A stretch of DNA of 64,000 nucleotides from Bacteroidetes bacterium GWB2_32_14 (GTDB lineage: Bacteria; Bacteroidota; Bacteroidia; Bacteroidales; UBA12077), in NCBI GenBank assembly GCA_001768235.1, contig MENK01000017.1, positions 1 through 64,000 on the forward strand, written 5' to 3'. Below are positions 4,797 through 29,222 of this stretch, in pieces. The notes below the pieces were generated by a model. The model saw only the letters and a list, made by a program, of their open reading frames with translations, was not told where the DNA came from and searched no databases. Every line of letters begins with the position of its first letter. Position 1 is the first letter of the stretch. The translations under genes and the position numbers were made by a program.

Positions 4797-4835
4797 AGCT
4801 TTTAAATTTTTTCTTTTTAAAGAATAAATCTTTAA

Positions 4836-7142: not shown

Positions 7143-7243
7143 ATTTTACAGGTTTGTTAAAATTCAAATTTTTAATATTTTCTATTGCTCAAATGTAATT
7201 TTTCAAAATTAATTCTAATATTAAAAATCCAAGTTATTTATTT

Positions 7244-9541
7244 TTATTTATGTTCAGATGTATCAATAGCAAGTAAAAGAATCTTTTCTATCTCATCATC
7301 AATATAAACGGGGATGAAAGAAATAATACAATTAAGCATTTTCCCTGTTTTTGTTTTTAGTTTGGAATATTCCTGGTGAGTATTACCGGCCATTACATTA
7401 TTCCAGGTTTCCTGGAGTTTATTCTTATCGTTTTCAGCAAAAAAGGATTCTGCTTTTAACCCGGTTATTTCACTTACAGAATACCCCAGTTTTTGAGAAA
7501 ATAAACTATTCGCATAAAGAATATCGGAATTAAAGCTAAATTCAGCTTTTAATAAAAAGCGATCAACGGCTTCAAGAACTCCTTTAAATTCGGCTTCGCG
7601 TCGGGCCGATTCTTCCTGCGTGGCTTGCAGCTCTTCCATGTTTTGTCTCATTTCTTCTTCCTGGGCTGCCATTTCTTCGGATTGCTGTTGCGATTGTTCT
7701 AAAAGTTGTGATGTGCGAATATTAATTCGTACAGATTTTAACGTGGAAGCAATACTTTCGGCAACCTTTTCTATAAACTGAATTTCATGTTCTTCGAATT
7801 TATTAAACGATGCTATTTCAATAACACCCATAATTTCGTTTTCAATGAGTAATGGAATAAGCAATAGGCTGTTAGGGTTAGAACCGCCTAATCCGGATGT
7901 TATCTGAACATAGTTTTGAGGTATTTCAGTAATATAAATGGTTTCTTTTTCAACGGCACAGGTACCAACCAATCCTTCGCCAATCTTGATTTGTTTTTTA
8001 AGATGTTTTTTCCTGTCGTAAGCAAATGCTGCGAGTAATTCTAAAACCACATTTCCCTTATCCTGATCATTTTTTATGAATAACCCGCCCTGGTTTGCTT
8101 TGATATAGTATATAAGATTTTTAATAATTTCATTAGCCAATATATTTAAATCGTTGTTGTTTTGGCGTAATATTTCGGCGAATTTGGCTAATCCTTCGTT
8201 TGTCCAGCGGCGTTTTTCATCTTCGGTTTTTCGTTTTTCCTCTTCGTTGCGGGCCTTGAGTAAGCTATTTCTCATTTCTAACAGGGATTGGCCCAAAACA
8301 TCTTCCGGACTGAGTAATTCAAAATTCGTGTTTAATTCTCCGGCGCCAATTTGATTAGCAAATTCAACTTTTTTATTTAATCCTTCAATTGATAAGTTTA
8401 GCCCGTTAGCCATTTCTTCAATTTCATCGTGTGAATTTACTGTTACAACCATCTTTTTGTCGATATGCCCTTTTGATATCAGTTTAAGCAGATGGGTTAT
8501 GTTTGTAATAGGGTTCGTAATATTACGGCTAATGATATTAATAACAAGAACCAATATTAATAAACCAATAAAGCCAACAATAAGCGAAATTCTAAAGTTT
8601 CGGGTTGCTTTATACATAATTGTTTTAACAGGAACAGAAATTGCAATAGACCAGGGTGTGTCTGTATTAACAACGTTTATGGGAGCAAATGAAATATAAT
8701 GCTCCATCCCGGTAACATCATTTGTAATAAAATTAAAACTTTTTCCTTCTTTAATTTTCTCAGTAATTGAAAATTTCCCGTCTTCCCGGGGAAATAAATC
8801 AGCAATTTTTTTATTTAAAAGAGATTTATCGGAATGGCCTGTAATTATCCCCCCGTTAGATACCAGGAAAGCATAACTGCCATTGTATGGTTTTATTTTT
8901 TCTACCATTTTTTGAAAACGATCCAAGGTAATATCAACAGCGACAATACCAACGTATTTGCTTCCATCCATTATTGGAGCATTAATCGTTGTCATTAGAA
9001 ATTTTTCGGCTTTATTATCTGTAAAAACATCTTCGTATGGTTCCCATATTGACGGGGTTGTTCTTTTTTTAATCTCTGCATAAAGTACCGGATCGCCCTC
9101 CAGGCTTCGATATTCAAAATTATTTTTTATTATTTCTTTTTCTCTCCAGTATATAATTACGAAGCGGCCAGTAGGTTTATTGTAATTGGGATCAACAGCA
9201 TTTAATTCCCAACTATCCCAAATGCTGTAAATATGGGGTGCATTTTTAAAAATAGATCCATACATTTTTGTAACCAGGCTTTGCCATTTATCAATAGGCA
9301 TTTCTTTATAAGTAACAAAAGCTGTTGCCAGGGTATTCACCATTGATAAATCTGCATCGAGAGATGCTTTTATTTCGTTTGCAGATTTCTGAACAATTTG
9401 ATTCGTAACTTCAATGGCATCGGCATAAGCCATTTTTCTTGCATTTAAACTGATATAACCAATAGCTATTATGTAAATAATTATGGATGATGAAATAATA
9501 AACAGCTGAATTTTTTGGTTTATTTTAAGTTTAATTTTCAT
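7244..9541 (-). CDS. Cache-HAMP-GAF-PAS membrane receptor, no output domain (copy 3)
   Basis: This 765-residue paralogue is closest to copy 1 in the membrane and Cache region (MKIKLKINQKIQLFIISSSI against MKLKLKIQQKIQLFIISSSI). It shares the HAMP, GAF and the QEEEMRQNMEELQATQEE coiled coil. Its terminal PAS (after ~residue 645, RFLLKAEFSFNSDILYANSL) differs from the PAS of copies 1 and 2 and looks exchanged. The first gene of the array, it lies about 100 bp upstream of copy 2. Like the others it has no kinase or other enzymatic domain. The hybrid kinase at 10457-13321, on the same strand upstream, is one possible partner (inference). Confidence 0.8.
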   Translation of the reverse strand: MKIKLKINQKIQLFIISSSIIIYIIAIGYISLNARKMAYADAIEVTNQIVQKSANEIKASLDADLSMVNTLATAFVTYKEMPIDKWQSLVTKMYGSIFKNAPHIYSIWDSWELNAVDPNYNKPTGRFVIIYWREKEIIKNNFEYRSLEGDPVLYAEIKKRTTPSIWEPYEDVFTDNKAEKFLMTTINAPIMDGSKYVGIVAVDITLDRFQKMVEKIKPYNGSYAFLVSNGGIITGHSDKSLLNKKIADLFPREDGKFSITEKIKEGKSFNFITNDVTGMEHYISFAPINVVNTDTPWSIAISVPVKTIMYKATRNFRISLIVGFIGLLILVLVINIISRNITNPITNITHLLKLISKGHIDKKMVVTVNSHDEIEEMANGLNLSIEGLNKKVEFANQIGAGELNTNFELLSPEDVLGQSLLEMRNSLLKARNEEEKRKTEDEKRRWTNEGLAKFAEILRQNNNDLNILANEIIKNLIYYIKANQGGLFIKNDQDKGNVVLELLAAFAYDRKKHLKKQIKIGEGLVGTCAVEKETIYITEIPQNYVQITSGLGGSNPNSLLLIPLLIENEIMGVIEIASFNKFEEHEIQFIEKVAESIASTLKSVRINIRTSQLLEQSQQQSEEMAAQEEEMRQNMEELQATQEESARREAEFKGVLEAVDRFLLKAEFSFNSDILYANSLFSQKLGYSVSEITGLKAESFFAENDKNKLQETWNNVMAGNTHQEYSKLKTKTGKMLNCIISFIPVYIDDEIEKILLLAIDTSEHK

Positions 9542-13463: not shown

Positions 13464-14780
13464 ATGAAAAATAACAAATTGTTGCGATACCTGGTAATAG
13501 CTGTAGTTGTGCTCATTATTTTTGCAGTAATAGGGAAAAAAGCAGGGTGGTTTGGGGGCGAGGTACTTATAAAAGTAAGTGTTGAAAAACCTGAAAGCAG
13601 GGCAATAACCGAAATAGTTACAGCAAGCGGGAAAATACAACCCGAAACAGAAATAAAAATTTCGCCCGATGTTTCTGGTGAAATTGTTGAGTTAAATATA
13701 CTTGAGGGAGATGATGTTAAAAAAGGAGATTTGCTTTTAAAAATTAAACCCGACATTTATATTTCTGCTGTTGACAGGATGAAAGCAACCGTGAATTCTG
13801 CCAAGGCAAATTACGCAAATTCACAGGCAATGCTTGAACAAATAGAGTCGAAACAGAAGCAAACAAAAAACTCGTTTGAACGCAGCAAAATATTGTGGGA
13901 GCAAAAAACCATTTCCGACTCTGATTATGAATCGGCGTTATCGGCTTACGAGATGATCAATGCCGAACTGGAAGCAGTAAAAAAATCGGTTGAATCATCG
14001 AAATATTCTGTTCAAAGTGCAGAGGCAACCTTAAAAGAAGCCCAGGAAAATCTGAATAAAACAATCATTTATGCACCTATGAGCGGAACAATATCGCGAT
14101 TAAATGTAGAAGCCGGCGAACGTGTTGTTGGAACCATGCAAATGGCGGGTACCGAGATTTTGCGTATAGCAAACCTCGACCGAATGGAAGTGAAAGTTGA
14201 AGTGAATGAAAACGATATTGTAAAAGTTAAATTGAATGATACTGCCCTCATCGAGATTGATGCATATCTTGGTGAGAAATTTAAAGGAGTGGTTACCGAA
14301 ATAGCAAATTCGGCAAATGTTACAGGAATGACTACCGATCAGGTTACCAGCTTCGATGTTAAAGTGCTGATGTTAAAAGAATCGTACACCCATTTATTAA
14401 AAAATAACAATACAAGTCCTTTTCGTCCGGGAATGTCGGCATCGGTCGATATTCAGACAAACACAAAACGTAACGTATTGTCCATACCAATACAAGCGGT
14501 AACAGCACGTGCAGATACTACGGATATTACCGGTGGTGTTGATTCTGTTAAAACCGACGATGAAATTAAAGAAATCGTTTTTGTGGTTTCGCACGATTCG
14601 GTGTATTTAAGGCCTGTAAAAACAGGTATTCAGGATAACAGGTACATAGAAATCCTTGAAGGGCTTACTCTCGACGAATCTGTTGTTGTTGCTCCGTACA
14701 GTGCAATATCAAGAAAACTGAAAGACAAATCAAAAGTTACTGTAGTTGATAAAGATAAACTCTTTGAAGAAAAAGAGTAA
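13464..14780 (+). CDS. RND/MacA-type periplasmic adaptor (membrane fusion protein)
   Basis: The 438-residue protein has an N-terminal membrane anchor (~7-25, LLRYLVIAVVVLIIFAVIG) and a biotinyl-lipoyl-like half (SGKIQPETEIKISPDVSGEI). A long alpha-hairpin coiled coil (~100-190), the second lipoyl half (IIYAPMSGTISRLNVEAGER) and beta-barrel and membrane-proximal domains complete it. It would bridge an inner-membrane exporter to an outer-membrane channel. Unusually, no MacB-type permease/ATPase or TolC gene follows; tsaB is next, 38 bp away. Its transporter partner must be encoded elsewhere. It is divergent from the hybrid kinase with ~140 bp between. Confidence 0.85.
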   Translation: MKNNKLLRYLVIAVVVLIIFAVIGKKAGWFGGEVLIKVSVEKPESRAITEIVTASGKIQPETEIKISPDVSGEIVELNILEGDDVKKGDLLLKIKPDIYISAVDRMKATVNSAKANYANSQAMLEQIESKQKQTKNSFERSKILWEQKTISDSDYESALSAYEMINAELEAVKKSVESSKYSVQSAEATLKEAQENLNKTIIYAPMSGTISRLNVEAGERVVGTMQMAGTEILRIANLDRMEVKVEVNENDIVKVKLNDTALIEIDAYLGEKFKGVVTEIANSANVTGMTTDQVTSFDVKVLMLKESYTHLLKNNNTSPFRPGMSASVDIQTNTKRNVLSIPIQAVTARADTTDITGGVDSVKTDDEIKEIVFVVSHDSVYLRPVKTGIQDNRYIEILEGLTLDESVVVAPYSAISRKLKDKSKVTVVDKDKLFEEKE

Positions 14781-16357: not shown

Positions 16358-16500
16358 AACACACCTGAAATGTCTAAAACGCATAGAGTGCCTAAAAATT
16401 AACGTTTCCCAAAAAGAAAATATGAATCAGCTCTCTCTTTTCTAAAGGGGTTGGGGGATTTTATTTTTTATTTGTATTTTAGATCTACACTAGAAAACAA

Positions 16501-16878
16501 ATGGGTAAAATCCAATACAATAAAGATTTAAGAGATTACTCAAAAGAATTAAGGAATAATTCAACAAAAGGGGAAATTATTCTTTGGAAAAAGGTTTTAC
16601 GAGCCCGCAATTTTCATGGATATCAATTTAATCGCCAATTTGTTATAGGAAATTATATTGTTGATTTTATAAGCAGGAAGCTAAAATTAATTATTGAGAT
16701 AGATGGTTATTCGCACCAGTTTAAAAGCAAAAAAGATGCAGAAAAAGATAAAAACCTAAGCAATTTAGGATATACGGTTTTAAGATTTCAGGAGAACGAA
16801 GTCCGGTATTATTTGGATGATGTTGTTTGGAAACTGGAGAAATTTTTGGAAAATATAGAAGATTCTAATCCCCCTTAA
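16501..16878 (+). CDS. DUF559 endonuclease-domain protein
   Basis: The 125-residue cytoplasmic protein is a complete DUF559 domain, a Vsr-like branch of the PD-(D/E)xK nuclease fold. The N-terminal part LRNNSTKGEIILWKKVLRA is typical. The presumed catalytic residues are in IVDFISRKLKLIIEIDG (Asp and Glu) with the YSHQ segment after it, and the ending GYTVLRFQENEV is characteristic. The actual substrate of the family is not established. It lies inside a cluster of hairpin repeats (see the element at 16431-17043), which suggests it travels with them. Confidence 0.85.
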   Translation: MGKIQYNKDLRDYSKELRNNSTKGEIILWKKVLRARNFHGYQFNRQFVIGNYIVDFISRKLKLIIEIDGYSHQFKSKKDAEKDKNLSNLGYTVLRFQENEVRYYLDDVVWKLEKFLENIEDSNPP

Positions 16879-16879
16879 T

Positions 16880-17043
16880 CCCCCTTTTTCAAAGGGGGAA
16901 AATTTAATCGGCTCCCTTTTCCAAAAGTGAAAACACAAATCAACTATCCCTTTTCCAAAGGTGGAAACATAAATCAACGCCCTCTTTCCTAAAGGGGAAA
17001 CACGAACCAACTCCCCCTTTTCTAAAGGGGGTTGGGGGGATTT
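16880..17043. repeat. Tandem degenerate hairpin repeats, about 33-35 bp period
   Basis: Five units start near 16880, 16913, 16948, 16980 and 17013. Each has the pattern CCCyTTTtCcAAAGGGg followed by an AAAyAyrAAyCAAC spacer. The first (16880-16898, CCCCCTTTTTCAAAGGGGG) and last are perfect or near-perfect hairpins; the middle three are degenerate. Confidence 0.8.
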
Positions 17044-17154
17044 AAAAACTTTTTCACCTTGATTTTTTTGTCAGAAAAGGGGAGAATTTTAAAAAGCAAT
17101 TGAAAAATTTAAAATGCTTTAAACAGGTATTCGTAATTGGTTATTGGCAATTGA

Positions 17155-18192
17155 TCATCGATGCAGGATCGTTGTTTTAGCAAATTCAATTAACGTTTCA
17201 GCGTTTTTTCCCGGGTCGTCCTGTTCAAGAGCAACTGGAAACACCGTGTTTTTTTCGCGGCTGTCAACACCAAAACTATAGCTCTTGTCGTAATAAGTAA
17301 GTGTAATATCGGCAACATCATCTAAATGGCCTGATTTAAGGCGTTCCAAAGCCTGTTTTACATGCTGGCCACCCAGGCGTTTGCCTATTTTTAAAATACA
17401 TTCCTCGAGAAAGGCCGGGTCGAAGCCGGCATACTCGGCTACAAGGCGTTTAATTCGAATGGATTTGGCTATTTCCATTTTAAGTACGGGTGCCTGCCGC
17501 ATGATATCAAATAATTCGCCCGGGATCCAGTTTGTTCCAATAGAATGACTTTCGTCTTCGAGCCAGATAGGGCGTGATGCATCTAACTGTAAATACTGGT
17601 ATATTAAATTGTTTTCGAACTGTTCGTTGGAGGGTTGTTTTTCCTGCCCCAACGCCCCGAAGGCGGAGCCTTTATGGTTTGCCAGTTTTTCCAGGTCGAT
17701 AACCTGTTCGCCTTTTTCTCTTATTTTGTGAAGGGTTTCTGTTTTGCCGCTGCCGGTTAATCCGCCAAGAATAATAATTTTTTGTGCCCCGGACAGCTTC
17801 GATTTGCCATAGCGCCTGAACGATTTATACCCTCCCGACAGCGTGTAGGTTTTTATGCCAACCATTTCGAACAGCCAGGCCATGCTCGCGCTACGCATAC
17901 CCCCGCGCCAGCAGTAAACCAGCAGTTGGTTGTTAATGGCAAGCTCCTGTGCTTTTTCGGCAAAAGGTTTCATCTTGGGGCCCACGATCTCAAGCCCTTT
18001 TAAGACTGCCGTGTTGCGGCTTATTTGTTTATAAACAGTACCCACAAGTGCACGTTCTTCGTTATCGAACAAAGGAATATTCACAGCTCCCGGGAAGTGC
18101 CCTGTTTCGAACTCGCGCGGAGAACGGACATCTACTACAGGAATGCTTTTCGACAACTCTAAAAAATCGGATATGTTTAGTTTCTGAACCAT
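17155..18192 (-). CDS. mnmH: tRNA 2-selenouridine synthase
   Basis: The 345-residue enzyme (also called SelU/YbbB) has an N-terminal rhodanese domain (~1-130) with the active-site Cys in LLVYCWRGGMRSASMAW. A P-loop domain (~135-345) with Walker A GGLTGSGKTET follows. It replaces sulfur by selenium in the wobble 2-thiouridine of tRNAs for Lys, Glu and Gln, through a geranylated intermediate, using selenophosphate. Presence implies that selD is encoded elsewhere in this genome. Length and both domains are normal. It stands alone, bounded by repeats on one side and the RiPP island on the other. Confidence 0.92.
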   Translation of the reverse strand: MVQKLNISDFLELSKSIPVVDVRSPREFETGHFPGAVNIPLFDNEERALVGTVYKQISRNTAVLKGLEIVGPKMKPFAEKAQELAINNQLLVYCWRGGMRSASMAWLFEMVGIKTYTLSGGYKSFRRYGKSKLSGAQKIIILGGLTGSGKTETLHKIREKGEQVIDLEKLANHKGSAFGALGQEKQPSNEQFENNLIYQYLQLDASRPIWLEDESHSIGTNWIPGELFDIMRQAPVLKMEIAKSIRIKRLVAEYAGFDPAFLEECILKIGKRLGGQHVKQALERLKSGHLDDVADITLTYYDKSYSFGVDSREKNTVFPVALEQDDPGKNAETLIEFAKTTILHR

Positions 18193-18650
18193 GGGTTTTT
18201 ATAACGCTGCTAAATTACATAAAAAACATTCTCTTACTTAAACGGATTTGAAAAATCAACCTGTTTTGCCTTTGATCTCTGAAAAGACGGGCAGGGATAT
18301 GAAAAAAGCGAATAATAGAATAGAGTTCCGGTATTAGTTAAAAGTTGATTTTAAACACGCTCCAATCAGGCCTCTTGCAAAAACGTGTTGTAAAACACGT
18401 CGATGGTTGGGTTACCTTTTTTAAAAAACAGGCACATGTAAGTGGAAGAGGGAAAGATTTAAGGAATAAAACAAGAATACTTATACGCTCTTTTTTAGGG
18501 TACAAGTGTTGTATAAACAAGTTGGGCATAATTTACAATGCCGTAAGACAAATTCTTATGAACATATGATAGGATAATATTGAATTGATAAATAATAAGC
18601 TAATTTAAATATTAGCATAATAATAATTTATTCACTAAAAACAATGTATT
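18193..18650. other. Intergenic region with left island boundary and RiPP promoter
   Basis: About 460 bp contain no convincing gene. The left copy of the 37-bp island repeat is at 18409-18445, preceded by a small GTGTT/AACAC hairpin (18385-18398). The last ~100 bp before the precursor gene are very AT-rich and should hold its promoter, but I see no clear TAnnTTTG element. Confidence 0.5.
18409..18445 (+). repeat. Left copy of 37-bp direct repeat flanking the RiPP island
   Basis: The 37 bp beginning GGGTTACC and ending GGCACATGTAAGTGG match 24619-24655 at 36 of 37 positions, in the same orientation. A shorter upstream block (TGTAAAACAyGT) is also shared (18389-18400 and 24587-24598). Confidence 0.85.
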
Positions 18651-19190
18651 ATGAATTTGAACAGCGATTTATTTAGAGCAAAATTTTCATTGCTAATTGT
18701 AAAAATGTGGAAAGATGAAAAACTAGAAAAAGAGTTTATTATTAATCCATTAGTAGTATTAAAAGCTGAAGGTTTTGAAATACCAGAAGGAATAGAGGTA
18801 AAAGTGTACTCAAACACTAAAGATGTTAAGTATTTACCTCTCACGAAGGAAATAGACTTATCTAAAGAAGAAGAGCAAAAAAGATTAATTGCTTTGTTTA
18901 GTCGTCATATTCCAATACCCAAAGGAAAAGAGGTTAGGTTTGTGCAAAGCTCAGATGATGAAATAGCACTTATTATTCCTCCAAAACCTCCTAAAGAAAG
19001 TATTGAGACATTGAGCCAAGTACAATTAACCAACCTGGCTGCATCTAGTGGTTTTGAAGCAACATATCATGACACTACACAAACATTAGAAGCGGAAACA
19101 ACCGAACTTGTAGTCGCCGAAACAACCGAGGCAATGCATGCCGAAACAACTGTAGCTGTAGTTGCAGAAGTAGCTCTCGTCTTAATTTAA
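18651..19190 (+). CDS. Proteusin-like RiPP precursor: doubled NHLP leader and AETT-repeat core
   Basis: The 179-residue protein looks like a radical-SAM-modified peptide precursor. Residues ~15-66 resemble a nitrile-hydratase-like leader (NHLP), as in EFIINPLVVLKAEGFEIPEG followed by IEVKVYSNTKDVKYLPL. Residues ~76-114 resemble the second half of another copy (IPIPKGKEVRFVQSSDDEIA, ending IIPPKPPKE). A short ETLSQVQLTNLAASSG segment (119-134) ends the leader. The C-terminus is built of 8-residue units: AETTELVV (148-155), AETTEAMH (156-163), AETTVAVV (164-171) and AEVALVLI (172-179), with a degenerate unit at 140-147. There is no Cys in the whole protein. It is 83 bp upstream of two radical-SAM genes. 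NHLP leaders plus PoyD-like epimerases define proteusins; the doubled leader and octad core are unusual. The assignment is by pattern, not database search. Confidence 0.8.
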   Translation: MNLNSDLFRAKFSLLIVKMWKDEKLEKEFIINPLVVLKAEGFEIPEGIEVKVYSNTKDVKYLPLTKEIDLSKEEEQKRLIALFSRHIPIPKGKEVRFVQSSDDEIALIIPPKPPKESIETLSQVQLTNLAASSGFEATYHDTTQTLEAETTELVVAETTEAMHAETTVAVVAEVALVLI

Positions 19191-19210
19191 CTATTTTTCA
19201 ATTCAGTTCT

Positions 19211-19250
19211 GGTTTCATAAAACTTCCATAACTAGGAGTTTTATGAAACC
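19211..19250 (+). promoter_or_regulatory. 14-bp perfect hairpin between precursor and maturase genes
   Basis: GGTTTCATAAAACT (19211-19224) and its exact complement (19237-19250) enclose a 12-nt loop. There is no strong T-run, so it is more likely a partial terminator/attenuator or 3'-end stabiliser. It would let precursor mRNA exceed that of the downstream enzymes. Confidence 0.6.
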
Positions 19251-19273
19251 TTAAAGAATAAAAGGATTAATCT

Positions 19274-20725
19274 ATGAAGGAAATATTTTATAACCTAATT
19301 GGCAAACAAGGAGAAATACCGGGTGATTACCTGCAAGATATAGGAGAAACCAAACGAGTTCTGGAGCGTTGGACAATTGATGATGAATTTAGAAAAATGG
19401 ATAACATTGAGGAAGGTCTTAGGATGATAAAAACTCCAAGAACGTTGTTGGAAATACTTCCTTTTATTGATAAAAAGGAAGGCACTGAGCTTCGAATAAA
19501 AGAGCGTAACAATGAAGACAATACCTACCCATTAAGTGTTAGAAGATATAGACACTTTATAAAGGAAAAGATGGCAGGGAGAAAAGATATAAGAATTGGC
19601 ATCTTACCGGAAAACCAAAAGTTTAAATACTGGCGCAATCGACAAATAAACAGATGCATTGGAGAATTAGGACCAATAAAAGCGGACGGTTTGGTTCATG
19701 CACCACTTGCTTTTGAATTATCAAAGGGATGCTCTGTTGGATGTTGGTTTTGTGCTGTATCATCACAAAAGCTTACAAAAGTTTGGAGATATACTAATGA
19801 AAATGCAAAACTTTGGAAAGATTCTATCAATATCCTGAAAGAAACCATTGGAGACTGCATTAAGTATGGAGTTTGTTATTGGGCTACAGAACCATTTGAC
19901 TGTCCGGATTATGAGAAATTTATTGAAGATTTTGTCCTGCTTACCGGAAGATGCCCACAAACAACAACAGCTATTCCTGATAGAGAAATAGAAAGAACTA
20001 GAAAGTTTTTAAAATTAATGGATAAACTAAATGGTGGTATTAATAGATTTTCAATCCGTTCAAAAGAGGCTTTATTTAAGGTACATACTAACTTTACAGC
20101 ACAAGAGCTTACATATGTTGAATTAATTCCTCAAAACTTAGAAGCTTCAAGTCAATACAAAAAAGCATATGCAGGAAAAGCCCGTGAAGTAAAATTGTTT
20201 TCAAACAATTCAAAACTTAATGATAATGTACAAAAAGAAGAAAATGCATCAACCATTGCATGCATAAGCGGTTTCATTATTAATATGACAGAAAAGAGTG
20301 TTGAGCTAATTACTCCATGCCCAGCTTCTGTAGATTGGCCATTAGGATATTGGTCTTTAGACAAACAGTACTTCGAAAATGCACAAGAACTTTCAATCGT
20401 TTTAAATTCAATGATTGATAACCACATGAATCCTTCACTTCCACTTTTAAATATACTTAAACTAAGAAAAGACTTAACTTGGGCTAACTGTGCTGAGGAT
20501 GAATCTGTTGAAATAGTATCAAAGTACTTGTCTATTAAGTTCGACAGATTAATTTTTACTAATAAAATGCTAGAGCTTATTTCAGAAAGTAAACATACAG
20601 CTTTTGAAATAGCCATAATTCTAGAAGATATTTATAAAATCGAACTTTCTCTTATAATGCTTCAAATGAATGAATTTTATGAGAAAGGATTATTTGATGA
20701 AGAACCTTTAAAGCTGTCAAAATGA
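19274..20725 (+). CDS. Radical SAM RiPP maturase, PoyD-like amino-acid epimerase family
   Basis: The 483-residue radical SAM enzyme has its [4Fe-4S] motif CSVGCWFC at residues 153-160 (Cys153, Cys157, Cys160; CxxxCxxC). It is preceded by the conserved FELSKG and followed by AVSSQKL. The length, motif position and pairing with an NHLP-type precursor match the PoyD/OspD family that converts L-residues of a precursor core to D-residues. The alternating Val/Ala/Leu-rich octad ends of the precursor would be plausible targets. It overlaps the next gene by 4 bp (ATGA), implying translational coupling. Family assignment is from recalled motif and context, so another rSAM peptide modification remains possible. 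Confidence 0.7.
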   Translation: MKEIFYNLIGKQGEIPGDYLQDIGETKRVLERWTIDDEFRKMDNIEEGLRMIKTPRTLLEILPFIDKKEGTELRIKERNNEDNTYPLSVRRYRHFIKEKMAGRKDIRIGILPENQKFKYWRNRQINRCIGELGPIKADGLVHAPLAFELSKGCSVGCWFCAVSSQKLTKVWRYTNENAKLWKDSINILKETIGDCIKYGVCYWATEPFDCPDYEKFIEDFVLLTGRCPQTTTAIPDREIERTRKFLKLMDKLNGGINRFSIRSKEALFKVHTNFTAQELTYVELIPQNLEASSQYKKAYAGKAREVKLFSNNSKLNDNVQKEENASTIACISGFIINMTEKSVELITPCPASVDWPLGYWSLDKQYFENAQELSIVLNSMIDNHMNPSLPLLNILKLRKDLTWANCAEDESVEIVSKYLSIKFDRLIFTNKMLELISESKHTAFEIAIILEDIYKIELSLIMLQMNEFYEKGLFDEEPLKLSK

Positions 20726-22788
20726 AAAATAGAATTAACCCGGAAGTATGCTTAGTTTGTATGCCTTTTTCAAGTATCGTTAGACCATCAATAGCACTAG
20801 GCTTACTTCAAGGTCATTTAGATAAAGCAAACATTTCTTGTAAAACAAAATATGCAAACATTCAGTTTGCTGAGAATATTGGATTAAAATATTATACAAT
20901 GATTGGCTCACTGGCTCCAAGTGATTTCTTTTTAGCCGATTGGATGTTTAATAAGTTCATATTTTCGTCAGAAGTATCAGACACAGAAGATTACATTACA
21001 CGTATATATGAGTCCTTTATTATACAGGCATACCCAACAATGAATTACAATGAATGCAAAAATTTGCTCCTTGGTTTAAAAGAAAAATCAAGCCGATTTA
21101 TCGAAGATTTGGCCATTCAAATTATAGAAGAGAAATATAGAATCATTGGAAGTACTTCATCGTTTCATCAGCATCTAGCATCAATTTCTCTTTTTAAAAA
21201 AATAAAAGAACTTGATCAATCTATCACAACAATTCTGGGTGGTGCAAATTGTGAAGGTAAAATGGGACTAACAACACATAAATCTTATCCTTGGGTTGAT
21301 TACGTTGTTTCAGGAGAAGCAGATGAATTTTTCACATCTTTAATATCAAACATTTTAAATGGCTTAGAATATAAAAATTTAGAAAATTCGTCAGCTGTTT
21401 TAACTCCTGAAATCCGATTAAATAATTATCAGGAAATTGAAGCTGAAAACATGTTTGTTGTCTCAAAAAATTTAGATGATTTACCATATTCTAATTTTGA
21501 TGACTATTTCATTGATTTGAAAAAATCAAATTTGTCTGAAATTGTAAAACCAGCATTGCTTCTGGAATCATCAAGAGGTTGCTGGTGGGGACAAAAGCAT
21601 AAATGTACTTTTTGTGGGTTAAATCATCCAAAAGCACATTATAGAAAAAAATCGCCTGATAGATTATTGGCAGAATTAGATTTTTTAGAGAAAAAATATA
21701 GTGTTAGTATGTTTGAAATGACTGATAATATTCTTTCGATGGAATATTTTAAAGAAGTAATACCAAGGTTAAATAATAAAGAGAAAAGTCGTTACTTTTT
21801 TTATGAAACGAAATCAAATCTTAATGAATCTCATATTCGTGAAATGAAGGATGCTGGAATTACATGGGTTCAACCAGGTATTGAAAGTCTAAATACTAAG
21901 ATTCTTAAATTGATGAATAAAGGAGTGATGGCTTGGCAGAATATTAAAACATTAAAACTTGCTCGTAGTTATGGAATTCGTTTATCATGGAATTTTTTAT
22001 GGGGTTTCCCAAAAGAAGATGACAAATGGTATGAAGAGGTTTCTGAATGGCTTCCACTGATTGAACATCTTCAACCACCTTCATCTTTTTTACAAATACG
22101 AATTCATAGACATAGTACTTATTTTAATAATAAAGAAGATTATAATTTAAATTTGAAATATCTTCCAGCATTTAAGTATGTATTTGGTTTAGATGAGGTA
22201 AGTTTGATTGATGCATCATATACATTTAAACCAGAAGGATGGGCCGATCCTGTATGGGATTTTAATGATAATCAATACAAAGAAAGACCATCGACCAGTA
22301 AAGTAGGAAAATTAATCATTGATTGGCAAAGGAGTTTTATGAAATTTCAATTACCTGTTCTTTCAATATCTGAAAAAAATGAAAAGATAGAAGTACTTGA
22401 TACACGAAAGTGTAGTTATGAAATTCAATATAAAATTCAAGATTTAGAAAAAGATGTTTATATCTCTTGCGAAAGGATGGATTTTAAAAAAAATATTTAT
22501 TCTGAATTTATAAATAAAGGTATTGACTTATTAGAAATTGATTTGATAGTTGAAACACTTAAAAAGAAGAAGCTTATTCTTGAAATCGACGATCGTTTGA
22601 TTGCTCTGGGGTTAAGAGGAGAAATTCCTCATTTACCATCTCGAAATGATTTTCCGGGAGGAGGAATTAATCAATCAGTAATAGAATTAAAAAATAATAA
22701 AACAATTTGGGAAATTGAAGAAACAAAGAATGAGTATTTGAGTAAAATTACATCAACAAAACTATGCCCAACTCGTGCTCATAAATAA
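20722..22788 (+). CDS. RiPP maturation radical SAM protein 1 (B12-binding-type N-terminus)
   Basis: The 688-residue protein has an N-terminal B12-binding-like Rossmann region (~8-250) with MPFSSIVRPSIALGLLQ, GGANCEGKMG and DYVVSGEADEF. A radical SAM domain with the unusual cluster motif C287-x7-C295-x2-C298 (RGCWWGQKHKCTFCGLNH) follows. These strings are hallmarks of the family called RiPP maturation radical SAM protein 1, known from NHLP- and bacteriocin-type clusters. Its chemistry is not established. The N-terminal part lacks an obvious DxHxxG cobalamin motif. A C-terminal winged-helix-like extension (~600-688) is present. The start overlaps the epimerase gene by 4 bp. Confidence 0.82.
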   Translation: MKNRINPEVCLVCMPFSSIVRPSIALGLLQGHLDKANISCKTKYANIQFAENIGLKYYTMIGSLAPSDFFLADWMFNKFIFSSEVSDTEDYITRIYESFIIQAYPTMNYNECKNLLLGLKEKSSRFIEDLAIQIIEEKYRIIGSTSSFHQHLASISLFKKIKELDQSITTILGGANCEGKMGLTTHKSYPWVDYVVSGEADEFFTSLISNILNGLEYKNLENSSAVLTPEIRLNNYQEIEAENMFVVSKNLDDLPYSNFDDYFIDLKKSNLSEIVKPALLLESSRGCWWGQKHKCTFCGLNHPKAHYRKKSPDRLLAELDFLEKKYSVSMFEMTDNILSMEYFKEVIPRLNNKEKSRYFFYETKSNLNESHIREMKDAGITWVQPGIESLNTKILKLMNKGVMAWQNIKTLKLARSYGIRLSWNFLWGFPKEDDKWYEEVSEWLPLIEHLQPPSSFLQIRIHRHSTYFNNKEDYNLNLKYLPAFKYVFGLDEVSLIDASYTFKPEGWADPVWDFNDNQYKERPSTSKVGKLIIDWQRSFMKFQLPVLSISEKNEKIEVLDTRKCSYEIQYKIQDLEKDVYISCERMDFKKNIYSEFINKGIDLLEIDLIVETLKKKKLILEIDDRLIALGLRGEIPHLPSRNDFPGGGINQSVIELKNNKTIWEIEETKNEYLSKITSTKLCPTRAHK

Positions 22789-22918
22789 TTTCCTTATGGC
22801 AGTAAAATCGGGGGTTGTGACCCGCATCTGTTTCGGTGTAACTGAACAGTTAAGTAACTCGCAATCGGCAACTATTCATAGTGCAACACGTTGGCAACAG
22901 ACACATACACTATAAATT

Positions 22919-24412
22919 ATGGAACTATATCAACAATTAGGGTTCTCAAACAACCCTTTTTCGACTTTTTCTGCAGAAGAGGAAAAATCATTTTTAAATG
23001 ACATCTATATAAATCCTCTTTTCTATGAGACGTTAAAGTCTGACTTATTAAGTGGTCATAGTAGATTTATTCTTGGTGCAAGAGGGATAGGTAAAACAGC
23101 TTTAATTCTTCAGTTAAGGAATGCACTTGATAAAGATGGAGCTTTTACTATTATTATAGATGAGTTTGATGGAGTGTCTTTAAAAAACAATCAAGTTGAA
23201 TTAACTCGCTTAATTATTGAGCGGGTTATTACAAATTTTTGTATAAAAATAGCTAAAGATCCTAAGGGACTTAAAAAATTAGATAAATATCAAAAAGAAA
23301 AATTATCATTTATTATAAAAGAGTTTTTTCAGACATTAAGTAAGAGCCAATATGAGAAACTTTACAATAAAACAGATAATATTAGAACGAGAAATACATT
23401 AAAAAATATTTGGAATAACTTTTTTAATAAACCGATTAACTTTCTTATTTCAGGAGGTATAGAAATAGTTGCAGAAACAGCTAGAAAGTCGATGGGTTTA
23501 CCTTCCATCGATGGTAAAGAATTTTATAAAAATTATGTTCCTGAGCTAACTATTGAACAAATTGAAAGAGAAAAGAAACCAGAAAAATTTCTTTCAAATA
23601 TCAAGCCACTTAAAGAAATACTGAATGATTTGACAGAGATTATTCATGCCGCTGGGTTTAAGACTTCTATTGTGTTCTTTGATAAAATTGATGAATACAC
23701 AAAGTTGAACGGAGGTATTTCTGCAGTTTCAGACTTTCTTTCAGCCTTTTTAAAGGATACGACTATATTAATGAATAAATCATACTCATTGGTTTTTAGT
23801 TTGTGGGATGTTTTAAAGCCAGAATTAACAAATAATGGAGTCAGGTTTGATAAAATTAAACCAATAGATATAACATGGCAAACGGATAATTTGAGAGAAA
23901 TATTAAATAAAAGAATAAGATTCTTTAGTGGAGGTAAAAAAGTAATTAATGACATAATATTATCTGATAATAAGTTGAATGAGATTATTACATTGTCAAA
24001 TAATTCTCCTCGTTACTTATTTCGTCAACTTTCATATATTTATGACCAACAAGCTGAAATTAACAAGGTTTCCAAAGTGTTAACAGATGAAGCAATTGAT
24101 AAGGGACAATTGGTTTTTTCAAAGAGTTTTGAGTATTATGCTATTTATCCAACTAAAAGAGGGGCTAAAGAAGATATTTTGACAAACATAAATCGACTGT
24201 TGAAAATAGGGAAAACTACAATAATGACAAAAGACTTTGTAGATGCTTATAAAGTGAGTACTCCAACTGCAATATCATATATAAAAATTGTTCAAGAATA
24301 TAATTTAGTGCGAGAACTTACAGAAACTGATGGTGGTGCGAAGATGTATGACGTTCTAGATCCTGTTTTGAGACACTTAATAAAATATGGTATTACAGAG
24401 ATAAAAAAATAA
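22919..24412 (+). CDS. ORC/CDC6-like AAA ATPase with C-terminal winged helix
   Basis: The 497-residue protein opens with a GFSNNPFSTFSAEEE segment and carries Walker A GARGIGKT (53-60). A Walker B-like IVFFDKIDEY occurs near residue 250, a NNSPRYLFRQL sensor-2-like segment near 360, and a C-terminal helix-turn-helix (VSTPTAISYIKIVQEYNLV) near 445-465. This resembles the ORC-CDC6/Sll1717-type AAA ATPases of accessory regions, several of which occur next to defence genes. A direct role in peptide maturation is not expected. It is separated from the RiPP genes by 130 bp of higher-GC spacer and is flanked by CGTTGGCAAC (22890-22899) and CCAACAACGG (24419-24428). This suggests it is a separately acquired cassette. 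Confidence 0.65.
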   Translation: MELYQQLGFSNNPFSTFSAEEEKSFLNDIYINPLFYETLKSDLLSGHSRFILGARGIGKTALILQLRNALDKDGAFTIIIDEFDGVSLKNNQVELTRLIIERVITNFCIKIAKDPKGLKKLDKYQKEKLSFIIKEFFQTLSKSQYEKLYNKTDNIRTRNTLKNIWNNFFNKPINFLISGGIEIVAETARKSMGLPSIDGKEFYKNYVPELTIEQIEREKKPEKFLSNIKPLKEILNDLTEIIHAAGFKTSIVFFDKIDEYTKLNGGISAVSDFLSAFLKDTTILMNKSYSLVFSLWDVLKPELTNNGVRFDKIKPIDITWQTDNLREILNKRIRFFSGGKKVINDIILSDNKLNEIITLSNNSPRYLFRQLSYIYDQQAEINKVSKVLTDEAIDKGQLVFSKSFEYYAIYPTKRGAKEDILTNINRLLKIGKTTIMTKDFVDAYKVSTPTAISYIKIVQEYNLVRELTETDGGAKMYDVLDPVLRHLIKYGITEIKK

Positions 24413-24618
24413 CTACTACCAACAACGGCTCTTACCCAATGTAGGGTTAAGTGTGTGTGGAGTTTAGCATTATACTTTAGCAAAACGCTCCCTGTTCTGC
24501 AAAAGTTTCCAGTGAACAAGCTTTTACAGATTTACCTCTCTTTTTTTCAAATAGTTCGAACTGAAACACCCCGGGGATGATGCTTTTGTAAAACATGTTA
24601 TATAGCATACCGCTGACC

Positions 24619-24655
24619 GGGTTACCTTTTTTTAAAAACAGGCACATGTAAGTGG
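24619..24655 (+). repeat. Right copy of 37-bp direct repeat flanking the RiPP island
   Basis: This copy differs from 18409-18445 at one position and has the same orientation. The interval between the two copies is about 6.2 kb and contains exactly the precursor, both radical-SAM genes and the ATPase. Confidence 0.85.
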
Positions 24656-24772
24656 GGAACGATTCATGTTCAAAATATAATTTTTAAAAAAATAGAAATT
24701 TCATTATAAAACGGGATAAAAGAGATTATTGCAAACATTGCTGATGCAAAAGAGATTCTGATGAATTATAAA

Positions 24773-24804
24773 TTTCTTTTATAAAAGGGTGTGTAATACT
24801 TTTG
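24773..24804 (+). promoter_or_regulatory. Possible Bacteroidota-type promoter
   Basis: TACTTTTG (24797-24804) fits the TAnnTTTG -7 element. TTTC at 24773-24776, 20 bp upstream, could be the -33 element (consensus TTTG). It lies 56 bp before the start of the membrane-protein gene at 24861. Confidence 0.4.
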
Positions 24805-24860
24805 TTTCATAACACGGGGCTATTGGCAGGAATAGCAAAATCTGACTAAAAATAGAACAA

Positions 24861-25370
24861 ATGAGTATATTTATTTTATATAGCATTAATAAGCGGGAGT
24901 TAAATAAAATCAACCTGGCAAACAGGTTGTTTTTTATTTTTTATGGCATATTATTAGGAATCTTTGGCTGGCTGGGATTGATTTCAGATTGGAAAGGTTT
25001 CAGGGGTTCATATTTTTTTATTTTAATCTTCACCTGGATAGTTATATTTTTTGCCCTTTCGTGTTATTTCCGGCGAAATAACAAAAAATTAAACCGCATT
25101 GGAGAACTAACGATATCAATGGAAGGAATTCATAAAGTGATTAACTGTGAAAAGGTGTTTTTTGATCACGATAAAATAAATAGCATAAAAACCAGGAGTT
25201 TTTTATTGACCCCGTTTTTCCCGGCCAATATTGACGGAACCAGGTCGTATTTAATAACAATAGATCACGGTAAATCAGTAAAAGAAGAAATGATAATTTC
25301 AAGCCAGTCGGTTGATAAACCGGAAACGAATTTTAAAGATGTTGTCAAAGGATTAGCAAAAAGAGTTTAA
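24861..25370 (+). CDS. Small membrane protein of unknown function
   Basis: This 169-residue protein is not recognised. Two hydrophobic helices are seen (~22-42, RLFFIFYGILLGIFGWLGLI, and ~50-68, YFFILIFTWIVIFFALSCYF). A soluble C-terminal part (~75-169) follows, with a beta-rich pattern resembling a PH-like fold of bacterial membrane-associated proteins. It is a single gene just outside the right island repeat and faces the AIM24 gene. A long hairpin follows. Confidence 0.6.
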   Translation: MSIFILYSINKRELNKINLANRLFFIFYGILLGIFGWLGLISDWKGFRGSYFFILIFTWIVIFFALSCYFRRNNKKLNRIGELTISMEGIHKVINCEKVFFDHDKINSIKTRSFLLTPFFPANIDGTRSYLITIDHGKSVKEEMIISSQSVDKPETNFKDVVKGLAKRV

Positions 25371-25393
25371 TACAAACTCGCGATTAAAATAAA

Positions 25394-25422
25394 GATTTCC
25401 AAAGGGTTAATCTTTGGAAATC
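25394..25422. terminator. Hairpin between convergent genes
   Basis: A perfect 11-bp stem (GATTTCCAAAG / CTTTGGAAATC) with a 7-nt loop lies between the convergent genes ending at 25370 and 25454. No long T-run is present on either strand, so its strength as a terminator is uncertain. Confidence 0.55.
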
Positions 25423-25453
25423 CCGGCATTAAATATCCTGTGAATTTGATTTC

Positions 25454-26221
25454 TTATCCTTCAAGGAAATTACCCAGTATCGATCGGCTTTCTTTGTGCG
25501 ATGCAGGGCTCATGATGGATAACCTGCGTATGAGTTTGCTTATAGGCATAGATTGCAGCCAGATTTTTCCTGTTCCCCGCAGGGTTGCCACGAAAAACCC
25601 TTCGCCGCCAAAAACCATCGATTTAAGGCTGCCTGCAGCTTCCACGTCGAAATCGATTTGTGGTTCGAAAGCCACCACGCAGCCTGTATCTATACGCAGG
25701 GTTTCGTTATTCAGGGTTCGTTCAATTACAGTTCCCCCGGCATGTATAAAAGCCTTACCATCGCCATCAAGTTTCTGTAAAATAAACCCTTCGCCGCCCA
25801 CGAGGCCTGCCCCAAGCTTACGGTTAAAGTGGATTGATATTTTTGTACCCATGGCGGCACACAAAAACCCGTCTTTCTGAACAATGAGTTGCCCCCGGCT
25901 TTGTTTTAAATCAACAGGGATAATTTTACCGGGATAGGGCGCTGCAAAAGCTACTTTCTTTTTACCAAACCCCCGGTTTGTAAAATGGGTCATGAAAATG
26001 GATTCGCCTGTAATAAGCCTGCTTCCAGCCGATAACAACTTGCTCATGAGCCCCTGGTTGGGTGTTGAGCCATCGCCAAGCTTGGTTTCGAAAGTAATGC
26101 CATCTTCCATAAACATCATGGCTCCGGCTTCTGCAACAACGGTTTCCTGCGGGTCGAGTTCAATCTCTACCAGCTGAATGTCATCGCCAATAATTTTGTA
26201 ATCTATTTCGTGTGAGGTCAT
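25454..26221 (-). CDS. AIM24 / TIGR00266 family protein
   Basis: The 255-residue cytoplasmic protein belongs to the AIM24 (TIGR00266, tryptophan-RNA-attenuator-like fold) family. It shows the expected order: [20 protein letters not shown] near the start, the [11 protein letters not shown] segment near 75, and [17 protein letters not shown] near the end. Bacterial members form beta-sandwich assemblies of unknown role; the mitochondrial homologue affects inner-membrane structure. Length is normal. It stands alone, convergent with the small membrane-protein gene. Confidence 0.88.
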
Positions 26222-26375
26222 AATGAATTATAAATTTAAAGTTAAATGTTAAAAGCCTGCCTATTGACAGACAGGTAAAAATTGTTAGTTGCTACATTCT
26301 ATAATTAGTACAGAATATCGAAATTTAAACAGATTCGTTTTTGTCTTGATACCTGATACTAAACACTCAATACTA

Positions 26376-29222
26376 TCACTCAGTAAACCATTTAATCAGA
26401 ACTTCCTTTACTTCTTCAATACGAACGGGTTTAGCCAGGTAGTAATTCATACCACTATCGAATGCTTGTGTTTTATCTTCCTCACGTGCATTGGCTGTCA
26501 TGGCTACAATGGGTAATGAATATCCCATGCTTCGTATTTCGGCTGTTGCCTCAAGCCCGTCTTGTTCGGGCATCATAATATCCATGAAAACAATATCAAA
26601 TTTATTTTCTTTAATCTTTTTAACACAATCTTTCCCGTTTTGAGCTAAAATAATTTCATAACCGAGGTTTTTAAATATAGTTTGCGCTACTTTCTGATTA
26701 ATGATATTGTCTTCGGCAACCAGTATTTTAATATTCTTTTTTAATTTGTTCAACTCGGGCAGTTCTTTGTCTGTAACTCTGAGGCTGGTAAAATTTTCTA
26801 TGAGTATCTCGTAAATTTCAGATGCTTCGTAAGGTTTAATCAGGTAATAATCGACCCCGTTTATTTTACATTTAATATAGTTTCCGGGTTGATCGTTCGA
26901 ACTGATAATTGCAATGAGGTATTTTGATGAAAGCCCATTTTCGTGAATTTTACGGGCAAGTCCTATTCCGTCGAACTCGGCACAATCGTTAATTATCAGC
27001 AGGTGATATTTGTTTTCAGCACCCGAACTGTTTTTCTCGAGTAAGGCGATTGTATCTTCCCCGGGGATTATTTCTTTGTTGTTTGTTTCAAAGCTGTTAA
27101 AGGTGTGAAGGATTATTTTATCGTTTTTAGGGTTTTTATTAATGATTAACACGTTAATCTGGTTGTAATCTGTAATCTTTGAAAAATCGGTTTCTTTCTT
27201 TAGTTTCTCGTTAGAGAATACCTGTATGGTGAATGAAAATTTCGATCCGGTATATTGTGGATCGAAAGAGATTGATGAGGGGCTTTCGACCCAAATCTCG
27301 CCACCCATAAGTTCAACAAGCTGTTTTGCAATTGTTGTTCCAAGTCCTGTACCGCCAAACTTGCGGGTAGTAGAACCATCGGCTTGTGAAAACGAGCTGA
27401 ATATTTCTTTTAACTTTTCCTTTGGTATTCCTATTCCCGTGTCTTCAATTGAAAACTGAAGCGTAATGTATCCTTTCTGCATTTTAACCATTTCAATGGT
27501 AATCAGGATTTTTCCCTCGAAGGTAAATTTTATGGAGTTCCCGATGAGGTTCGACAGAACCTGTCGTAACCTGAACGGGTCGCCAATGAGTTGATCGGGA
27601 ACATTCTTTTTAATTTCGGTAATCAGCTCAATTCCTTTTTCTTCGGTTCTCAGCCTGAATAAAGATGCTGTTGATTCAATTTCTTCGCGCAGGTTAAATG
27701 GGGTTTCTTCAATAACCATTTTGCCGGCTTCAATTTTTGAGAAATCAAGAATATCGTTAATAATCGATAAAAGAAGATCGGCCGATTTTTTAATAATATG
27801 TACCGCGTCGGCTTGCTTGTCGTTAAGGTTTGTACCACCCAAAGCATCAGCCATTCCTATAATCCCGTTCAATGGAGTACGAATTTCATGGCTCATTTTT
27901 GCAAGAAACTCCGATTTGGATTTATTGGCTGCAATTTCCCGTTTACGGGCAATTTCTATGGGCGTAATATCGATAAAAGCTTCAAGGGAAATATTTTCAT
28001 TATCCAGGATATAAGGAATTTCCTTCTTGTAAATAATGATTTCGTTATCGTTATCATCGTAATAAATATATTCGTTCTGATTGTCGGTATAACTGAACGA
28101 GTCGCTATCCTGAAAGTTCCTCGAAATAAGAAACTGATCGCTCAGGTTCTTGCCTACCAGCTCTGATTCATTTTCAAAAGCAAAAATGTTTAATGCTGTT
28201 TTATTCATACTTAAAACAGTTCGGTTTTTATCAACCATCATTATTCCAATGGGCAACGATTCCATTATTTCTTTTAGCGACGATTCCGATTTCCTGATCT
28301 GTTTTTCTTCGTGAAACCTCCGTTTAATAAATATCAAAAAGAAAATAATGATAAATAATAAAATCAGAATTGTTAATGACCCGACAATTATAGCGTTACT
28401 GATTATTGATTTTAAAACGATTTTTGTTTCCAGCGAGAAAACAATACCTATATCGTTATTTAGAATCCGAATCGGCTGGTAAACGGATATGATATCATTT
28501 TTATTCCCGTTAAATTTTACCTGGTTATGTACGGAACCTTTATATCCATTTTTAATATCAACTGCAATCTTTTCAATCTTGCTTATTTGTATGGAGTCTC
28601 TGGTTAAATTTTGATTAAATATTTCCCCGTTTGAATTTACCGACCATTGCCACAGGGTATTTCCCAGGTGATAATTCTCGAATACATTTTTAATAAAATC
28701 CTGAATATCAGCTTTAATAACAATATTAACAACAGCCTTGTTGTTTACAAATACAGGTAAAGTATAATTATACGAACCATCCGCATTTATACTAACATCT
28801 TCTTTTGCAAGCAATTCCTTTTGTTTTTGAGATATATAATAATCGGAAATAAAATGATTGGTTTTATCCTTGAATAAACTGAAAACATTTTTATTTTCAT
28901 CTATAATCTTAATATTCCTGATAAGATTTTGATATTTAAAGTAAAATAACTCCAGCTTACGAACACGCATTTCGGTTTTTTCAGGACTGTCGAAAAAATT
29001 AGCGATATCTGACGAAAAAACAATGTAATTAATCTCGTTTTCAAACTCATAACCCGATTGTTCAATTTCCCATCCGCAGATTTGAATTTGTTTATCAAGC
29101 ATGTCGGTTTGGAATTTAACCTGTTGATTATAAATATAATAATAATAATAACTGTTTACTAAAACGATTATTAACAGGACGATCATTAATAAGTAATAAA
29201 ATCTTTTCATACTCCCTTTCAA
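26376..29222 (-). CDS. Hybrid histidine kinase with a degenerate and a canonical receiver
   Basis: The 948-residue sensor has TM1 (~8-30), a periplasmic sensor region (~35-270), TM2 (~273-300) and a PAS domain (~315-430). HisKA with His in SHEIRTPLNGIIGM, HATPase_c (DTGIGIP, GGTGLGTTIAKQL) and two receiver domains follow. The first receiver (~685-800) has LLIINDCAEFDG where an LMDxxMP loop is expected, so it looks degenerate. The second (~815-945) is canonical, with ILVAEDN, Asp in IVFMDIMMP, and Thr and Lys in AMTANA and AKPV. Its start overlaps the stop of the upstream sensory lipoprotein gene by 4 bp, so the two are probably translated together and act as one sensor. Confidence 0.86.
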   Translation of the reverse strand: MKGSMKRFYYLLMIVLLIIVLVNSYYYYYIYNQQVKFQTDMLDKQIQICGWEIEQSGYEFENEINYIVFSSDIANFFDSPEKTEMRVRKLELFYFKYQNLIRNIKIIDENKNVFSLFKDKTNHFISDYYISQKQKELLAKEDVSINADGSYNYTLPVFVNNKAVVNIVIKADIQDFIKNVFENYHLGNTLWQWSVNSNGEIFNQNLTRDSIQISKIEKIAVDIKNGYKGSVHNQVKFNGNKNDIISVYQPIRILNNDIGIVFSLETKIVLKSIISNAIIVGSLTILILLFIIIFFLIFIKRRFHEEKQIRKSESSLKEIMESLPIGIMMVDKNRTVLSMNKTALNIFAFENESELVGKNLSDQFLISRNFQDSDSFSYTDNQNEYIYYDDNDNEIIIYKKEIPYILDNENISLEAFIDITPIEIARKREIAANKSKSEFLAKMSHEIRTPLNGIIGMADALGGTNLNDKQADAVHIIKKSADLLLSIINDILDFSKIEAGKMVIEETPFNLREEIESTASLFRLRTEEKGIELITEIKKNVPDQLIGDPFRLRQVLSNLIGNSIKFTFEGKILITIEMVKMQKGYITLQFSIEDTGIGIPKEKLKEIFSSFSQADGSTTRKFGGTGLGTTIAKQLVELMGGEIWVESPSSISFDPQYTGSKFSFTIQVFSNEKLKKETDFSKITDYNQINVLIINKNPKNDKIILHTFNSFETNNKEIIPGEDTIALLEKNSSGAENKYHLLIINDCAEFDGIGLARKIHENGLSSKYLIAIISSNDQPGNYIKCKINGVDYYLIKPYEASEIYEILIENFTSLRVTDKELPELNKLKKNIKILVAEDNIINQKVAQTIFKNLGYEIILAQNGKDCVKKIKENKFDIVFMDIMMPEQDGLEATAEIRSMGYSLPIVAMTANAREEDKTQAFDSGMNYYLAKPVRIEEVKEVLIKWFTE

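Follow-up and report, generated by a model that had tools for sequence, protein, structure and literature searches.

Among the described systems closest to the locus reported here are the proteusin clusters of polytheonamide and aeronamide (poy, aer), which, in the accessible parts of the sources, combine an NHLP leader, a PoyD-family epimerase and a cobalamin-dependent C-methyltransferase with a Cx7Cx2C motif. The same combination is present in our locus. However, the poy and aer precursors carry an NX5N (hexad) core with N-methylated Asn and are served by more maturases, whereas the core described here is acidic, is organised in octads and becomes hydrophobic towards the C-terminus. The epimerisation carried out by PoyD follows a 1,3 pattern, and the activity of proteusins is described as largely unknown save in a few cases (PMC8326336, accessible text). 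The Cx7Cx2C motif has been reported for PoyB/PoyC and for the bottromycin methyltransferases, and PoyC methylates Val (PMC5682303, accessible text). Another comparison is offered by pythonamide (ere) of Candidatus Eudoremicrobium, in which EreD epimerises and EreB C-methylates a proteusin core that is not of the NX5N type (PMC9259500, accessible text). Pythonamide shares with our locus the proteusin type, the pairing of an epimerase with a cobalamin-dependent C-methyltransferase and the lack of NX5N; the FkbM N-methyltransferase and the hydroxylase that the accessible text gives for pythonamide were not seen at our locus. By the window we mean the whole 64,000-nucleotide stretch of Bacteroidetes bacterium GWB2_32_14 DNA analysed here. 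A proteusin-like cluster in Bacteroidota has been reported earlier, from Kordia (PMC10734526, accessible text), and the present cluster would extend the set known from this phylum.

We read the locus as a minimal proteusin (RiPP) cluster whose product is predicted, by analogy with these pathways, to contain D-residues and C-methyl groups (probability about 0.78). The gene set appears to have been acquired, and its predicted D-residue-containing, C-methylated peptide is probably related to the pore-forming polytheonamides. Both the proteusin kind and the combination of genes are already known; it is the octad core that sets the cluster apart. The features of the locus are as follows.

18193-25453, no strand: stretch between mnmH and an AIM24-family gene, 7.26 kb (7,261 bp); approximate bounds of the putative insertion
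18409-18445, plus strand: left copy of a 37-bp direct repeat, within a wider 66-bp similarity (18380-18445)
18651-19190, plus strand: precursor gene, 179 aa
18651-19043, plus strand: NHLP (nitrile hydratase alpha-like) leader, residues 1-131, from TIGR03793, the structural model and Foldseek
19044-19187, plus strand: putative core region, residues 132-179 (48 residues), with 8 Glu, 1 Asp and 10 Thr; Lys, Arg and Cys are absent
19092-19187, plus strand: four octads, AETTELVV AETTEAMH AETTVAVV AEVALVLI (lag-8 self-match z = 4.9)
19211-19250, plus strand: 16-bp RNA hairpin in the gap between precursor and maturase genes
19274-20725, plus strand: PoyD-like gene, 483 aa, with CSVGCWFC; radical SAM peptide epimerase family
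20722-22788, plus strand: rSAM 1 gene, 688 aa, with CWWGQKHKCTFC; TIGR03975 radical SAM enzyme
22919-24412, immediately following the cluster: gene for an anti-phage P-loop ATPase, family DS41 (NF053860, 406.6 bits; cut-off 370)
24619-24655, plus strand: right copy of the 37-bp direct repeat, within a wider 66-bp similarity (24590-24655)

The three genes of the cluster had been proposed in a sequence-only reading of this DNA. All three ORFs were found at these coordinates, and the searches against TIGR03793, TIGR04517 and TIGR03975 were positive for the precursor, the PoyD-like protein and the rSAM 1 protein, respectively, each scoring above NCBI's curated cut-off (the family scan covered 19 of the 56 window ORFs of at least 100 aa). 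A search of the whole genome returned one NHLP match, one PoyD match and, above its cut-off, one TIGR03975 match. Gene order and overlap had been taken to argue for a functional unit: the order recurs elsewhere, as described below, but the overlap is limited to the two maturase genes (4 bases, ATGA, 20722-20725), the precursor and PoyD-like genes being separated by 83 bases. The hairpin located in this gap (fold z = -4.6; none of 200 shuffles reached its stability) could restrict read-through or shield the mRNA of the precursor. It is not universal: among 11 such gaps folded (without shuffles), those of L028 and L045 had no structure.

The precursor matched TIGR03793 (NHLP) with 54.0 bits (E = 1.2e-14, cut-off 50.9), and in the six-frame search of the genome the NHLP match reached 45.4 bits, which is under the cut-off. 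The assignment is thus borderline from the alignment score, near the line, and is supported by the predicted fold. The leader model contains two successive beta-hairpins (strands 49-54/59-64 and 94-99/104-109), the second of which, also NHLP-type, was absent from the earlier description, and the top Foldseek matches of the model were alpha chains of nitrile hydratase, aligned along some 140 columns. The proposed NHLP-type leader is therefore upheld by both the family score and the nitrile hydratase alpha-like predicted fold. The GG cleavage motif that is usual, although not universal, in proteusin leaders was not found anywhere in the precursor. The leaders of the uncharacterised AETT-core clusters end in GG, unlike that of the window; GG is also missing in L025, L027 and L028, and the Puia and Burkholderia relatives lack it at the same place, the leader ends being alike in Puia (L028, METGWEA) and the window (ASSGFEA).

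The PoyD-like protein scored far above the TIGR04517 cut-off (435.9 bits, 1.7e-130; cut-off 325) and its catalytic cysteines are conserved, in agreement with the candidate epimerase carrying CSVGCWFC that had been suggested. The cluster cysteines C153, C157 and C160 (Cx3Cx2C) are kept in 99 of 100 aligned PoyD-type ORFs, and C330 in 98, the remaining two being gapped there (the alignment left out matches under 120 bits as well as L004, which shares a contig with L088). In PoyD, a single additional cysteine, C372, is strictly conserved and has been proposed to donate the H atom (PMC8326336, accessible text); C330 presumably corresponds to it and is likely the H-atom donor of the window enzyme. 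A sequence search of solved structures with the PoyD-like protein gave no match at E 1 or better. Of 395 genomes from the phylum, 3 carry a PoyD match above the cut-off, the source genome counted.

Residues 133-179 are unstructured in the precursor model. The AETT repeat that had been described in this region is present, but the description was too small, since the repeat comprises four octads. Of 13 lags compared, the window core gives its highest score at lag 8 (z = 4.9, 2000 shuffles), lag 6 giving z = -0.4, and the Ala and Thr codons vary among the octad copies. Lag 8 is also the top lag in the cores of three Chromatiales genomes (z = 3.6, 3.4 and 3.0), which are close relatives of one another and not independent, and each of the four cores has a negative lag-6 score. 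A gap-free alignment of four octads could be made between the window and the Chromatiales cores, the Halochromatium octads reading AETTEVTV TETSEVQD TETSTTAV AEAEVAVV. With the lag-8 signal in both the window and Chromatiales, a chance repeat as the origin of the core was ruled out. No lag-8 signal was obtained from L017, L022, L036 or either L015 core (z at most 1.1), which speaks against a general rule. The polytheonamide-type cores L018, L045, L019 and L030 have lag-6 z values of 3.4 to 5.6, two such cores also showing some lag 8 (2.0 and 1.8) beside a stronger lag 6; the NX5N hexad core of polytheonamide-like proteusins was not found in the window core.

The AETT core has counterparts in other phyla, with homologous cores in three Chromatiales and two cyanobacterial genomes. 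In an alignment of cores only, made with precursor candidates under 300 aa, Halochromatium (L021; z = 10.3 against shuffles) and the first core of the cyanobacterium PMM_0086 (L015; z = 8.4) alone stood out among the best 25 listed. The shuffle test is not fully specific, as the hexad core L030 reached z = 5.0 and the Nif11-type L036 4.7. A core profile built from five cores (window, L021, two of L015, and L017) added Rhabdochromatium (L096; 1.0e-7) and a third Chromatiales genome, G1065 (1.2e-7). This profile matched 3 of 210 Chromatiales genomes, 3 of 386 cyanobacterial genomes, two of them taken as chance (G690, with E = 2.5e-4 in a 624-aa frame, and G712, with E = 8.9e-4 in a 620-aa frame), and, within the phylum of the window, 1 of 395 genomes, the source genome itself. 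A single AETT clade was not supported: in the PoyD tree, which left out rows under 195 bits, the window groups with both copies of L021 and of L016 and with the non-AETT L020 (99/97), L015 and L017 sit apart, and the AETT label, which included L022 with a core later missed by the profile, needs four changes. None of the 18 features that surround an NHLP match on a Thiodictyon plasmid was named as PoyD. The combination of NHLP leader, PoyD-like enzyme and AETT core had been presented as undescribed; the gene combination is known and the core has relatives, yet the literature searched, which lacks most subscription papers, yielded no described product built on a core of this type. The octad core class thus appears undescribed in the searchable literature, and further primary papers on PoyD homologues may list one.

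A scan of named genomes yielded 77 PoyD loci, and with the window precursor as query a precursor candidate was found in 25 of them. TIGR03975-type ORFs are present in 14 of these 25 precursor-bearing loci (within the DNA fetched), and the order precursor, PoyD, rSAM 1 in 8 of the 25. PoyD-type and TIGR03975-type ORFs accompany the homologous core in Halochromatium, Rhabdochromatium, G1065 and PMM_0086, as in the window, and thus in all three Chromatiales AETT-core genomes; in PMM_0086 there are three precursors and the rSAM 1 gene is cut by the contig end. Gene orders in two of the Chromatiales clusters, and the YcaO-type genes found in two, are as follows.

Halochromatium: PoyD, PoyD, precursor, HlyD, ABC1, ABC2, YcaO, rSAM 1
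G1065: precursor, HlyD, ABC1, ABC2, YcaO-type ORF, rSAM 1, second precursor, PoyD, PoyD
L131, 1913-3742, and L132, 13632-14888: YcaO-type genes of two Chromatiales AETT clusters, each placed between the transporter and rSAM 1 genes

Unlike the window, the Chromatiales AETT clusters have two PoyD copies (the Rhabdochromatium pair lies on a separate contig), NHLM transporters and an rSAM 1 enzyme without Cx7Cx2C. The YcaO-type gene, present where it could be read (2 of 3 clusters), is a further difference from the window; it scored 85.8 bits in Halochromatium and 59.7 bits in G1065, the latter under the cut-off of 75.65. The second G1065 precursor (L132, 10733-11368), beside the AETT-type cluster, is NHLP-like and has a run of serines as well as Cys in its core. 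Within Bacteroidota, the cluster of a Puia dinghuensis MAG (L028) resembles the window in gene order and in its non-GG leader end, but its core is rich in Ala, Val and Asn and has neither AETT nor octads.

In the source genome, the stretch between mnmH and the AIM24-family gene contains the RiPP cluster, the anti-phage ATPase gene and a small ORF. The distance between the matches to these flanking genes is 35-813 bp in 7 of the 18 further genomes searched (six of the genus and one of another family, the AIM24 match being fragmented in G004 and G010), the 11 others having no match to one or both. Because the flanking matches are nearly adjacent in these seven genomes, we read the stretch as inserted. 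A precursor homologue was found only in the source among 98 genomes searched, the 97 others including 19 of the same genus, and the cluster looks like an insertion and not a lineage feature. Comparison of the gap sequences of the seven short-gap loci with the window did not fix the boundaries, and none contained the 37-bp repeat. This repeat, with two copies in the source genome and none in 18 others searched, brackets the cluster and the ATPase gene, and each copy has its end 205 bases ahead of an ORF (starting at 18651 and 24861); it may mark an insertion or represent a promoter region common to both ORFs. The GC content of the stretch is 0.28-0.37 (1-kb windows), against 0.40-0.45 in the immediate neighbours; however, since parts further out are similarly low (0.34-0.37 on the left, 0.30 on the right), GC is weak evidence for acquisition. 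No tRNA was found in the window, and Rfam gave nothing above the gathering score at 16500-26500. PADLOC did not match the neighbouring ATPase, which NCBIfam did. The small ORF at 24861-25370 (169 aa) has no confident family, with a weak match to a Csx1-like TM+CARF protein (E = 0.0075). Elsewhere in the window, three genes in succession (2487-9541, minus strand) encode sensor-like proteins that resemble one another (765-769 aa; Cache, HAMP and GAF, with PAS in two) and lie near a gene for a 954-aa hybrid histidine kinase (10457-13321).

Family scans recognised no protease, transporter, immunity or further maturase gene in the 7.26-kb stretch. An HlyD-family gene (13464-14777) lies outside it and a transporter with a C39 peptidase is encoded on another contig, neither with a sign of a link to the cluster. 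The stretch without a recognised cleavage or export gene, the leader without GG and the acidic core, unlike that of polytheonamide, all speak against our preferred reading. Had the insertion left transporter and protease genes behind, the cluster could be a broken or silent remnant that yields no mature product, in keeping with the HlyD and two ABC transporter genes that adjoin the precursor in all three Chromatiales relatives and with the restriction of this GG-less precursor to one of 98 genomes. We nevertheless consider a remnant unlikely: the three ORFs are intact and have conserved catalytic residues, the octads keep Ala-Glu-Thr-Thr despite partly changed codons, and the Puia and Burkholderia relatives likewise lack GG.

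The rSAM 1 protein scored 639.3 bits against TIGR03975 (rSAM_ocin_1; 6.3e-192, cut-off 281.85), a family named by NCBI 'RiPP maturation radical SAM C-methyltransferase', so that the family assignment made earlier stands and can be extended: from motif and model, it is likely a cobalamin-dependent C-methyltransferase resembling PoyB/PoyC. Cx7Cx2C is present in it and in 43 of 57 homologous ORFs, the window being included in the 57 and one contig counted twice (L004 was kept although on the contig of L088). The structural model (mean pLDDT 88) resembles cobalamin radical SAM enzymes, its nearest PDB structures being OxsB, MgmA, TsrM, AprD4, TokK and CysS, and the Pfam B12-binding match was 21.5 bits (cut-off 32.1). 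By score, the window protein is closer to that of the polytheonamide-type cluster L018 (482 bits) than to the Chromatiales AETT ORFs (368-389 bits). Each of the three Chromatiales AETT genomes has rSAM 1 without Cx7Cx2C, a shortened CWWGRCxFC being readable in two, so the motif does not characterise the AETT family. This loss, together with the presence of the non-methylating cobalamin radical SAM enzymes OxsB and AprD4 among the nearest folds, would fit an enzyme with another activity, such as ring formation, crosslinking or dehydration, in which case the AETT family would be chemically apart from the polytheonamides. Such chemistry seems distinctly improbable to us, given that both the window and Halochromatium proteins score above the cut-off of a family named for C-methyltransferases and that the window protein keeps the spacing reported for PoyB/PoyC in the accessible text.

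Graspetide-like ester or amide crosslinks through the Thr/Glu-rich octads, whose TT-x5-E spacing presumably resembles that of graspetide cores, are very hard to credit, as no ATP-grasp enzyme was found among the seven proteins scanned (stretch and edge) and all Halochromatium ORFs from PoyD to rSAM 1 were assigned, none to ATP-grasp. Among the same seven proteins there was no lanthionine synthetase, and the core has no Cys, which sets the locus apart from landornamide-type (lanthipeptide) systems.

For the epimerised and C-methylated peptide that we favour, the families of the enzymes and the polytheonamide and pythonamide pathways suggest epimerisation followed by C-methylation. The leader would present the C-terminal core to both radical SAM enzymes. 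The PoyD-type enzyme would abstract alpha-hydrogens, with C330 returning hydrogen to give the D form, perhaps at Val, Ala and Thr in alternate positions. The rSAM 1 enzyme would then methylate unactivated side-chain carbons, the likeliest sites being Val beta-carbons in ELVV, AVV and VALVLI. The octads would place equivalent side chains at an even spacing, so that these have the same handedness along an alternating D/L chain. Leader removal and export would be provided by genes elsewhere, and the mature peptide would be linear and acidic, end in a hydrophobic tail and perhaps act on membranes. More speculatively, and with little confidence on our part, the AETT family might form a second structural class of D/L peptides in which, once PoyD has turned alternate residues into the D form, the octad repeat would set a wider helix of about 8 residues per turn, with a stacked Glu/Thr ladder at i, i+8, i+16 and i+24, and a role as an acidic cation-selective channel or ion carrier; polytheonamide, by comparison, has a six-residue turn and a methyl-Asn ladder. 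With only two enzymes, the cluster could be rebuilt in one experiment, and with an octad core that is conserved between this Bacteroidota genome and those of purple sulphur bacteria it allows a test of whether the length of the core repeat determines the epimerisation pattern and the geometry of the helix.

Other PoyD loci carry precursors of different types. Thr/Glu-rich cores with hydrophobic tails, window-like in make-up, were found at L036 (7594-7935), L047, L061, L080 and L083, with another type of leader, which we take to be Nif11-like. In the Flavobacteria (Mesonia, Chryseobacterium), the PoyD loci L068, L074, L076, L078, L079 and L089 have short precursors with Ser/Cys-rich core ends (...SASxNSCS), unlike the window.
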